Part shown: positions 56,495-59,501 of the stretch, piece by piece
Layout of the letters: every line of letters starts with the position of its first letter
Position numbering within the stretch: the first letter of the stretch is position 1
Program-made: the position numbers and the translations under genes
The notes under the pieces: generated by a model
Told to the model about the DNA's origin: nothing
Databases searched by the model: none
What the model saw: only the letters and a program-made list of their open reading frames with translations
NCBI RefSeq assembly: GCF_014204545.1
Contig: NZ_JACHLJ010000003.1
Coordinates: 372,001-436,000 of the forward strand
Length of the DNA stretch: 64,000 nucleotides
Reading direction: 5' to 3'
Source: Brevundimonas vesicularis
GTDB taxonomy: Bacteria; Pseudomonadota; Alphaproteobacteria; Caulobacterales; Caulobacteraceae

Positions 56495-57123
56495 GCCGCG
56501 ATCACCCCCGCCCGACGCAGCTCTTTCAACACCGGCCAGAGCGGCAGGCCCAGCACCGTGAAATAGTCGCCGTCCACCGCCTCGAACAGCTGCGAGCCCA
56601 GCCCCTCGAGCCGATAGGAGCCGACGCAGGACAGCAGGGCCTCGCCCTCGGCCGCCAGATAGGCGTCGAGGAAGGCGTCCGAGAAATCGCGCATCCGCAT
56701 CTGAACCGTATCGACGCCGGACCAGACGATCTGGCCCTTGGTCGCCAATGCTGCGCCGGAATGCAGCTGGTGCGACTTGCCACGCATCGCTTTCAGCCGC
56801 TCGCGCGCCGCGTCCAGAGACCTGGCCTTGGAAACCAAGCCGCCGTCAAAGGCCAGGGTCTGATCCGAGCCCAGCACCCAGGCGGTTTCGTCGTCGCGCG
56901 AGACGGCCAGGGCCTTGGCTTCCGCGAGACGAACGGCGAGGGCGGCGGCGTCCAGGTCGGTCGAAACGGCCTTGATGGCGTCCTCGTCCACATCGGCGAC
57001 GCGCACCTCAAAGGCGACGCCGGCGTTTTCCAGCATGGCGCGGCGGGCCGCGCTCTTGGACGCCAGGATCACGGTTTCGCTCTCAAGCAGCCCGGAGGGC
57101 GATAGCGCAACAGAAACACTCAT
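56491..57123 (-). CDS. maf: Maf/YhdE-type nucleotide pyrophosphatase
   Basis: Hydrolyses non-canonical or m7G/dTTP-type nucleotides (210 aa). The start region VILASKSAARRAMLENAGV and the later ETAWVLGSDQTLAFDG, HSGAALATKG and GSYRLEGLGSQLFEAVDGDYFTVLGLPL are classic Maf signatures. The ATG overlaps the ppsR stop (TGATG at 57125-57121). Confidence 0.95.
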   Translation of the reverse strand: MSVSVALSPSGLLESETVILASKSAARRAMLENAGVAFEVRVADVDEDAIKAVSTDLDAAALAVRLAEAKALAVSRDDETAWVLGSDQTLAFDGGLVSKARSLDAARERLKAMRGKSHQLHSGAALATKGQIVWSGVDTVQMRMRDFSDAFLDAYLAAEGEALLSCVGSYRLEGLGSQLFEAVDGDYFTVLGLPLWPVLKELRRAGVIAA

Positions 57124-57992
57124 CACCAGGTCGTCCCGATCTTGTGGTTGCGATGCTCGCTCAGAAGATTGGTGATCGCCGCCGCCGTCTCTTCCACCGA
57201 GCGGCGGGTCACGTCGATGGTGGGCCAGCCGCGCCGCTCGAAGGCCCGCCGGGCCTTGATCGTCTCGTCGCGCACAGCGTCTTGATCGGTGTAGTTCGAC
57301 GACTGGCTGGCGTTCAGATTGTCGATGCGGTTGCGCCGGATCTGAACCAGCCGATCGGGCGACACGGTCAGGCCGATCACCAAGGGGTTCTTCAGCTTGG
57401 TCAGCCGCTCGCCGTCCTCCTGGCCCGGCACCAGGGGCACGTTGGCCGCCCGGATGCCCCGGTGGGCCAGATAGATGCAGGTCGGCGTCTTGGACGTCCG
57501 GCTGACCCCGCACAGGACGACGTCGGCGCCCTCCAGCTGATCCAGCGACCCCTGGCCGTCATCGTAGGCCATGGCGAAGTCCAGCGCCGCGATCCGGTTG
57601 AAATAGTCGTGGTCCAGCGCGTGCTGGGCGCCCACGCGGGTGGACAGGGCTGCGCCGAGATAGCGCGACATGGCGCCGACCAAGGGATCCAGCGCCCCAA
57701 TCTGGGGCATGTCCAGACGACGACAGCCTTCTTCCAATTGCTCGCGCAGATCGCGGTCCACCAGGGTATGGAGAACGACGCCCGGCGCGGATTCAACCTC
57801 CTGCAGCACCCGCTCCATCTGCTTTGCCGATCGCACCAGGGAATAGATGTGCTCGATCGGAATGACGCCGTCGAAACGCGCGGTCACCGCCTTGGCCATG
57901 GCGTTCAAGGTCTCGCCGGTGGAGTCCGACACCAGGTGAACGTGGAAATAGGTGGCCAGACGGGCCGGTCCCGAGGGTCTCGCAGGGCTCAT
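57123..57992 (-). CDS. ppsR: Pyruvate, phosphate/water dikinase regulatory protein (kinase/pyrophosphorylase)
   Basis: ADP-dependent kinase and Pi-dependent phosphatase of PPDK or PEP synthase, DUF299 family (289 aa). The P-loop GVSRTSKT at 162-169 and YFHVHLVSDSTGETLNAMAKA, LALIDFAMAYDDGQ-like and SQSSNYTD segments are typical. ATG 57992 is chosen; the longer frame adds non-conserved residues. It is the first gene left of the origin, as in Caulobacter. Confidence 0.95.
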   Translation of the reverse strand: MSPARPSGPARLATYFHVHLVSDSTGETLNAMAKAVTARFDGVIPIEHIYSLVRSAKQMERVLQEVESAPGVVLHTLVDRDLREQLEEGCRRLDMPQIGALDPLVGAMSRYLGAALSTRVGAQHALDHDYFNRIAALDFAMAYDDGQGSLDQLEGADVVLCGVSRTSKTPTCIYLAHRGIRAANVPLVPGQEDGERLTKLKNPLVIGLTVSPDRLVQIRRNRIDNLNASQSSNYTDQDAVRDETIKARRAFERRGWPTIDVTRRSVEETAAAITNLLSEHRNHKIGTTW

Positions 57993-58442
57993 GAGACTGT
58001 CTGTCTCCCTGTTGAAAGTTGGGGGACGGCGTTGGACCGTCGGGGCGCCGTTTTTCTTAGCCGCTGATCGATCCGCCCGCGAGCGGGGATGATGGTGGAT
58101 CGCGTCAGCCGTCCGCGGCCGGATCATCCCAAGGCGGGAAACCGAATTTCCAACCGCTGTGGAAAATCCTAATGAAAGGTTAACGGTGCTTAACCGCGTT
58201 CACAGCCGGAAGTCCCCGCGAACCCTTGCCCGTTAAGGTTTCGTTAGGGATTGTCCACCGGCGGGATGGGCCGTTTCGACATCCCCGTTAACGATATGAC
58301 GGGCGTGGATATCCGCTTTTGTTCCGCCGCCGCCGATCGAGTCATCCCCGCCATTCCACCGCCCTACCTGCCACTTCGAATCTTTTAATTCTTAATCTGA
58401 TTAGGGATTGAGAGCGGGGGGCTGTGACCTTAATCCTCCGGA
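57993..58442. other. Probable chromosome replication origin (Cori-like)
   Basis: A 450-bp gap lies between divergent ppsR and hemE, the position of the origin in Caulobacter crescentus. DnaA-box-like sites: TTTTCCACA (minus, 58158-58166), TTGTCCACC (58251-58259), ATATCCACG (minus, 58304-58312) and CGATCCACC (minus, 58094-58102). CtrA-like half-site pairs: CTAA-N7-TTAAC (58169-58184), TTAA-N7-TTAG (58233-58247), plus single TTAAC at 58190 and 58288. GANTC (CcrM) sites at 58339-58343 and 58378-58382. An AT-rich stretch at 58381-58410 may be the unwinding element. Function is inferred from synteny plus motifs. Confidence 0.8.
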
Positions 58443-59501
58443 ATGACCGATCAGACCCAGACTGCCGATCCGACACCCCCGGTTCTCCGGGCTCTCCGCG
58501 GGGAGACGTTGGAGCGTCCGCCGGTGTGGTTCATGCGCCAGGCCGGTCGTTATCTGCCGGAGTATCGCAAGCTGAGGGCCGAGGCGCCCGACTTCATCGC
58601 CTTCTGTCTGAACCCCGAAATGGCCGCCGAGGCGACGCTTCAGCCCATGCGCCGGTTCGGCTTCGATGCGGCCATCGTCTTCGCCGATATTCTGCTGATC
58701 CCGCGCGCCCTGGGCCAGGACGTCTGGTTCGAAACGGGGGAGGGGCCGCGTCTGGGCGAAATGCCGATCCCGGGTCGGATGGCCGAACTGGCCCCGGCGG
58801 CGGGCGAGCATCTGTCGGCGGTGGGCGAGACCCTGTCGATCGTGCGCGCGGCTCTGGAGCCTGAACGGGCCCTGATCGGCTTCGCCGGCGCGCCCTGGAC
58901 CGTGGCGACCTATATGCTGGACGGCCAGGCGCGCACCATCGGCAAGGGCGAGCGCGCTCAGGCCCGCACCTACGCCTATGCCGATCCCGAGCGTGTCGAC
59001 GAGACGCTGGAGGTCCTGGTCGAGGCCACGGCCCGATATCTGAAGATGCAGGCCGACGCCGGCGCCCAGGTTCTGAAGATCTTCGAGAGCTGGGCCGAGG
59101 GCTTGCCTGACGACCTGTTCGAAAGACTGGTCCTGAAGCCCCACCAGGCGCTGGTGAAGCGCACTCGGGAGCTGGGGGTCACCGTACCGCTCATCGGCTT
59201 TCCACGGGGTTCTGCGGCGCTTGCAGAGCGATATGCCCAAGAGGTCGAGGTCGACGCCGTCGCCCTGGACACCGCCTGCCCGCTCGAGGTCGGCAAACGG
59301 GTGCAGCAGATCAAGCCGATCCAGGGGGCGCTCGACCCGCTGTTGCTGCGCGCCGGTGGCGATCTGCTGGACCGACGTGTCGATCAACTGATGGAGGCTT
59401 GGGGGCAGGGGCCCTGGCTGTTCAACCTAGGCCACGGCATCCTGCCGGACGTGCCGATCGACCATGTCGAACAGGTTCTGAGACGGATCGGCGCCCAATG
59501 A
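58443..59501 (+). CDS. hemE: Uroporphyrinogen decarboxylase
   Basis: Decarboxylates uroporphyrinogen III to coproporphyrinogen III (352 aa). The signatures PPVWFMRQAGRYLPEYR near the N-terminus and IGFAGAPWTVATYML in the middle are present; GHGILPDVPIDHV closes the barrel. First gene right of the origin. Overlaps hemH by ATGA (59498-59501). Confidence 0.98.
   Translation: MTDQTQTADPTPPVLRALRGETLERPPVWFMRQAGRYLPEYRKLRAEAPDFIAFCLNPEMAAEATLQPMRRFGFDAAIVFADILLIPRALGQDVWFETGEGPRLGEMPIPGRMAELAPAAGEHLSAVGETLSIVRAALEPERALIGFAGAPWTVATYMLDGQARTIGKGERAQARTYAYADPERVDETLEVLVEATARYLKMQADAGAQVLKIFESWAEGLPDDLFERLVLKPHQALVKRTRELGVTVPLIGFPRGSAALAERYAQEVEVDAVALDTACPLEVGKRVQQIKPIQGALDPLLLRAGGDLLDRRVDQLMEAWGQGPWLFNLGHGILPDVPIDHVEQVLRRIGAQ

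Follow-up and report, generated by a model that had tools for sequence, protein, structure and literature searches.

A probable Caulobacter-type replication origin between ppsR and hemE in Brevundimonas, with graded loss of CtrA sites across the genus

The intergenic gap between ppsR and hemE of Brevundimonas vesicularis is, with a probability that we put at roughly 93%, the chromosomal replication origin, and it matches the Caulobacter origin in position and design. The gap is 450 bp long (57993-58442), with the start of ppsR at 57992 and the start of hemE at 58443. It had been named as the probable chromosome origin, with these correct coordinates, in the original prediction made from the window (the 64-kb stretch C3:372001-436000 of the source genome G000, which comprises 3.26 Mb in 15 contigs). 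That prediction is supported here by gene order, conserved sites, the position of parS and a strand switch in two of six genomes (G110 and G037), the switch being clear in both. The Brevundimonas gap is a Cori-type origin, of the known hemE/COG1806 kind. Points of added interest are the graded loss of CtrA sites within the genus, an array of GGCGCC palindromes in some relatives and the large distance to dnaA. The location of the origin bears on marker-frequency work and on studies of gene position, and it is given here for a genus in which many single-contig records open at dnaA, hundreds of kilobases off.

The neighbours of the gap were predicted to be the same as those of the Caulobacter origin, and profile matches confirmed the pair of ppsR/COG1806 and hemE (Table 1). 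Beyond these, the ppsR side carries genes for Maf, shikimate dehydrogenase, CoaE and an exonuclease-domain protein, and the hemE side those for ferrochelatase, a UPF0093 protein and Rho. In the available text of PMC1914354, the Cori of Caulobacter crescentus is placed between hemE (CC_3763) and the COG1806 gene CC_0001. As is characteristic of Cori-type origins, the gap lies between hemE and COG1806/PF03618, and it contains a cluster of DnaA boxes (which are weak), CtrA sites and an AT-rich region.

This gene order is general in the genus. hemE was detected in 127 of 131 Brevundimonas genomes, 110 of which supplied the genus set of gaps (L002-L071 and L299-L338; the other 17 were left out), and ppsR adjoins hemE in all 110. 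Among 20 stretches from other genera of Caulobacteraceae (L072-L091), 17 have a ppsR match beside hemE, and each of these 17 gaps carries at least one CtrA-like site at up to one mismatch. In stretches L078, L086 and L088 the 1.36 kb upstream of hemE gave no match to ppsR, and these loci may represent rearranged origins. A metagenome-assembled genome titled Bordetella sp. (L164, JAFKFS010000033.1) has a hemE that is 85% identical to that of the window, and is probably mislabelled.

Table 1. Genes and sequence features at the ppsR-hemE gap. Positions are those of the window.
Feature	Position	Strand	Basis or remark
ppsR / COG1806 (Kinase-PPPase, PF03618, COG1806/DUF299 family)	57123..57992	-	Left boundary, E 6.7e-86
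hemE (PF01208)	58443..59501	+	Right boundary, E 1.2e-99
Cori-type oriC intergenic region (probable)	57993..58442		Site content, alignments, strand asymmetry of relatives
Single GGCGCC palindrome	58044..58049		Only copy in the window's gap
Conserved block GCGAGCGGGGATGA	58079..58092		Spotted by eye in alignments
DnaA box TTTTCCACA	58158-58166	-	Fits consensus TTWTNCACA
CtrA site 1, CTAA-N7-TTAA, CTAATGAAAGGTTAA	58169-58183		One mismatch to TTAA-N7-TTAA; 2 bp from DnaA box
TTAA-N6-TTAA pair overlapping CtrA site 1	58180..58193		Spacing differs from CtrA standard
CtrA site 2, TTAA-N7-TTAG, TTAAGGTTTCGTTAG	58233-58247		One mismatch to TTAA-N7-TTAA
DnaA-like box TTGTCCACC	58251-58259	+	Two mismatches to TTATCCACA; 3 bp past CtrA site 2
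DnaA-like box ATATCCACG	58304-58312		Two mismatches to TTATCCACA; inside block GTGGATATCCGCTTTTGTTC...
Block GTGGATATCCGCTTTTGTTC...	58304..58325		Conserved block, contains DnaA-like ATATCCACG
GANTC (CcrM) site	58339..58343		Pattern search
TCATCCCCG, possible weak DnaA box	58342..58350	+	Aligns with TTATCCCCG or TTGTCCCCG in many relatives
AT-rich stretch beside hemE, likely unwinding element	58372..58412		Composition, alignments
GANTC site within AT-rich stretch	58378..58382		Pattern search

The gap was compared with Cori by the published description of the latter. Common to both are the boundary genes, an AT-rich stretch and the placing of DnaA boxes next to N7 sites for CtrA, and the two gaps are similar in length (404 bp for Cori in the table of PMC1914354, against 450 bp here). 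They differ in that dnaA is distant in Brevundimonas, and in that no IHF-like site was found in the window's gap at up to one mismatch from what we take to be an E. coli-type consensus. They also differ in CtrA sites, of which Cori has five according to PMC1914354, against two imperfect ones here. The hemE/COG1806 origins of Rickettsia share the boundary genes with the window's gap, but their gaps are about 82% AT as read from the table of PMC1914354, against 42% for the gap as a whole here.

Nearer comparisons can be made within the family. In genus g22, taken as Caulobacter, three or four perfect CtrA sites are present in five of six gaps (L075-L077, L079 and L080), and in L075, L076 and L079 one perfect site lies inside the AT-rich stretch. 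Towards ppsR, L079 additionally pairs a CtrA site with an adjacent TGTGGATCA box, which is missing in the window's gap. Another of the Caulobacteraceae stretches, L081, has the CTGTGGAAA-TCCTAA-N7-TTAA module in common with the window's gap.

The site content predicted for the gap was recovered when it was searched by pattern. For DnaA boxes, IHF sites and parS, the patterns were assumed consensus sequences. The CtrA pattern was TTAA-N7-TTAA, as in PMC1914354. Several DnaA-box-like sites had been expected, and three were found at up to two mismatches (58158, 58251 and 58304), against a mean of 0.73 in shuffled sequence, with 7 of 300 shuffles reaching three; at up to one mismatch there is a single box, against a shuffle mean of 0.06, and 17 of 300 shuffles reach it. 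At least two other places in the 64-kb window have four two-mismatch boxes per 450 bp. Taken alone, the DnaA boxes are not exceptional in the window, and those in the gap are few and weak, which counts against the origin reading.

CtrA-like half-site pairs with N7 spacing had also been expected. Two were found, and no perfect TTAA-N7-TTAA was present in the window's gap. Because the pattern is palindromic, the two sites give a both-strand count of four, against a shuffle mean of 0.11; of 300 dinucleotide-shuffled versions of the gap, 2 reached this count. They are the only two such sites within the window at up to one mismatch. In 424 kb of sequence from the same genome (the window and 18 stretches, a 20-kb overlap being left in) nine were found at this threshold, and the gap pair are the only two less than 200 bp apart. 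The two predicted GANTC sites were located at 58339 and 58378, so that the 450-bp gap has two, compared with a density of 1.04 per kb over 400 kb of the same genome (20 sampled stretches). The AT-rich end was likewise seen beside hemE, where the AT content of 40-bp windows is 55-70% across 58353-58422 and peaks at 70% at 58373-58412. No claim is made for DnaA-trio repeats (as defined in the available text of PMC8235120), because this AT-rich stretch can be read as such repeats in more than one frame.

When the genus gaps are aligned, the sites fall in conserved blocks. One pairs a DnaA box with CtrA site 1, which comes after it, a second joins CtrA site 2 directly to a DnaA box (TTAAGGTTTCGTTAGGGATTGTCCAC here), and the others are GTGGATATCCG and the AT-rich stretch. 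At the position of CtrA site 1 there is a perfect TTAA-N7-TTAA in relatives such as L050, L056, L060 and L063, and the second half of CtrA site 2 is TTAA in many relatives, against TTAG here. At least one perfect TTAA-N7-TTAA occurs in 57 of the 110 genus gaps. The CtrA-like sites had been described as imperfect, with CTAA or TTAG in one half, and this proved accurate, with one mismatch each and perfect sites of relatives aligning at these places. Because the same sites are conserved, and perfect in relatives, their imperfections look like the decay of real sites.

Site patterns were counted wherever they occurred in a gap, for the close relatives (L002-L029, n=28) and for all genus gaps (n=110). 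The CtrA site 1 pattern is present in 28/28 close relatives and 82/110 genus gaps, the CtrA site 2 pattern in 28/28 and 85/110, and TGTGGA, for the DnaA box at 58158, in 28/28 and 86/110. The GTGGATATCCG block and the exact core of the AT-rich stretch are each found in 28/28 and 28/110, and TT[GA]TCCAC, for the DnaA-like box at 58251, in 27/28 and 35/110; these three are therefore features of the nearer clade. In all 28 close relatives the final 75 bp of the gap include a GANTC site, and 42 of 69 anchorable genus gaps have one no more than 85 bp past the last TCCYCG. In 70 gaps GANTC reaches 5.92 per kb, whereas genome samples have 1.04, 1.38 and 1.41 per kb, which makes the gaps richer by a factor of about four to six. 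An exact match to the composite of CtrA site 2 and its DnaA box is found in 47 of 131 genomes, one copy in each, gave no hits in the controls, and is present in 47 of the 110 gaps. The block GCGAGCGGGGATGA, which fits neither a DnaA nor a CtrA site, is also kept in many of the aligned genus gaps.

The position of parS agrees with an origin at the gap, as all matches to the assumed consensus (without mismatch) lie within 9 kb of hemE in 20/20 genomes. Those of the source genome are at C3:437857 and 439087, just past the window and 7.4 and 8.6 kb from the start of hemE.

GC skew had been put forward as a further check. Raw GC skew is weak in this group, too weak for placing the origin, so third-codon GC polarity, with a correction for gene strand, was computed for six genomes (the source genome, G018, G033, G037, G110 and G122). 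For G110 a two-breakpoint scan was made over 30 sampled stretches, with the span from origin to terminus held to 30-70% of the chromosome. The best-scoring origin fell at 2.14-2.15 Mb, in the interval left between the two bins on either side of the gap (hemE, on the minus strand, ends at 2140615), and the terminus was placed at 0.78-0.90 Mb. The origin score was 1.37 at the gap against 0.22 at dnaA (1.39 Mb), and the expected sign was seen in 27 of 30 stretches (15/15 on the negative arm and 12/15 on the positive arm, where 3/15 were negative). In G037, all five 20-kb bins to one side of the gap are negative and all five to the other side are positive. G033 shows a near-switch, with 4/5 bins negative and 5/5 positive, and a pooled left side of only -0.005.

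The remaining genomes give a less regular picture. A 20-point scan of G018 had its peak at 0.68-0.82 Mb and scored almost as high at 0.44-0.50 Mb, the gap being at 0.37 Mb; its arms have the expected signs (+0.017 and -0.023, over 19 of 20 stretches, as the sums leave out L105, near the presumed terminus). G122 showed no polarity switch at the gap (+0.018 against +0.046). On contig C3 of the source genome, where the gap is at 430 kb, polarity is negative in a pooled sample of 1-320 kb and at 350 kb, positive at 370-410 kb, approximately zero at 410-430 kb and positive beyond, and is thus mostly positive on both sides nearby. G110 and G037 switch at the gap, and the draft contig itself changes sign near 350-370 kb, some 60-80 kb away, which leaves some chance of a skew inflection elsewhere in the source genome.

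The absence of a switch at the gap on its own contig would suit another explanation, in which the sites serve the control of ppsR and hemE transcription by CtrA, DnaA and GcrA and the origin lies elsewhere near parS. The gap is indeed a divergent promoter, and CtrA and DnaA are also transcription factors. Against this, polarity in G110 and G037 switches between the 20-kb bins flanking the gap, and no CtrA-like pair less than 200 bp apart was found in the sampled 100 kb to either side of it in G122, G033, G037 and G110 (one pair was found in the G110 samples, at about 1.34 Mb). Furthermore, the mapped Caulobacter origin is bounded by the same gene pair, as described in PMC1914354. We therefore consider transcription control alone to be very unlikely, and an origin within the gap to be the better reading.

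The other place at which the origin might be sought is dnaA, as in many bacteria, which would leave the gap as merely a divergent promoter region. Of 19 single-contig relatives, 10 open within 1 kb of the DnaA match (G127, G128, G016, G061, G018, G122, G120, G046, G102 and G101). A dnaA position close to ori is reported as conserved in Caulobacterales in the available text of PMC8116508, and Brevundimonas looks like an exception to this. The distance from dnaA to hemE is variable, at 138-748 kb (median 349 kb) in the 28 genus genomes where the two share one contig (with the circle closed for G097, G086, G102 and G019), and is 28-140 kb in 10 genomes of other genera. No polarity switch was seen at dnaA in G110, nor on contig C2 of the source genome, which carries its one DnaA-domain match (G000:C2:529788) and for which pooled polarity is negative both before (-0.083) and after (-0.041) dnaA. 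There was no parS match near dnaA in 20/20 genomes, and the dnaA locus, searched for 1.5 kb on each side, contained no DnaA box at up to one mismatch and no TTAA-N7-TTAR or CTAA-N7-TTAA. Nothing examined favours dnaA as the origin, and we regard this alternative as extremely improbable; the genus records opened at dnaA start away from the origin.

The regulators that act on the Caulobacter origin have counterparts in the source genome. Its CtrA is 89% identical to a Caulobacter sequence, two GcrA-family genes are present, and there is one RAMA-domain gene, which we take to be CcrM; of 14 control genomes, Caulobacter vibrioides alone gave a match to the RAMA domain. In the model for Caulobacter, CtrA keeps DnaA away from Cori, where moderate G-boxes adjoin or overlap the CtrA sites. 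Here the two CtrA sites have DnaA boxes at distances of 2 and 3 bp, a geometry that fits such an exclusion mechanism. If the gap fires as an origin, the three boxes at 58158, 58251 and 58304 would be bound by DnaA, with the weak TCATCCCCG box as a possible fourth, and a DnaA filament growing towards hemE would probably open the AT-rich stretch (58372-58412). Phosphorylated CtrA would, in the non-replicating cell type, occupy both N7 sites, which lie against the boxes at 58158 and 58251, and so exclude DnaA by competition. Methylation of the GANTC sites by CcrM may signal a freshly copied origin.

CtrA sites are not found at every Brevundimonas origin. CtrA-like sites at up to one mismatch (sequences further from the consensus being uncounted) are present in 89 of 110 gaps, and none was found in 21. 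Of these 21, 18 have at least seven copies of GGCGCC, L305 has six, and L064 and L335 have three and two respectively. There are thus 19 gaps among the 110 that have no CtrA site and 6-11 GGCGCC palindromes, a set that includes a B. diminuta genome (L041, L044, L047-L049, L053, L054, L057-L059, L065, L069, L305, L310, L312, L315, L319, L326 and L333). The 89 gaps with CtrA sites have a mean of 2.2 copies, and one has seven (L303, with other spacings). Single copies mean little because the background density of GGCGCC per kb is 2.43 for G033 and 2.87 for G037; the G033 array has 11 copies in 260 bp, and the next cluster in its 200-kb sample has five. The window's genome is of the ordinary type: its gap has two CtrA sites, both degenerate, and one GGCGCC. 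One genus provides a natural series of CtrA sites, from perfect through degenerate (the window's genome) to none, which is suited to asking whether CtrA must act directly on the origin. Neither a Brevundimonas origin sequence nor GGCGCC arrays at origins were found described in the literature searched, which had subscription papers mostly outside its scope.

The gaps with arrays belong to a single lineage. A ppsR tree with 86 rows (after removal of one of 87 sequences as too short, and without the last 40 gaps) joins the 12 array genomes that it contains in one clade with support 100/98. A quick tree covering all 110 brings the 19 array genomes together in a group that has no other member (FastTree local support 91). 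Six diverged array members were also aligned, and every one of the seven palindromes of L041 is conserved in all of the other five, against 8-18% of other 6-mers in the same part of the alignment. When L041 is aligned with L068, both half-sites are gone at the position of CtrA site 2 and the DnaA box is kept. CtrA itself is intact in 12/12 array genomes checked, and its DNA-binding half is nearly unchanged, which speaks against an altered CtrA specificity.

From these comparisons of sequence we infer that the array lineage lost direct control by CtrA and gained another regulator. Tentatively, CtrA may be off the origin in the B. diminuta-type lineage, though kept in the genome, with a putative GGCGCC-reading factor running the regulatory half of the origin; this is somewhat short of an even chance. 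The array might instead have a role in methylation or DNA structure, or reflect drift towards GGCGCC, either of which is possible. The array gives a concrete lead towards a possible origin-binding factor.

Two further properties of the array were considered and rejected. Helical phasing of the GGCGCC copies gave low periodicity values, and its nominal p of 0.011 is not independent evidence because the six representatives share descent. GGCGCC copies at 21/51-bp spacing are not unique to the origin, as 40 of 131 genomes have matches, many of them solely far from hemE and resembling coding repeats. Outside the array group in the tree, L064 (G060) and L335 (G115) have neither a CtrA site nor an array, and may be further cases of CtrA-site loss.
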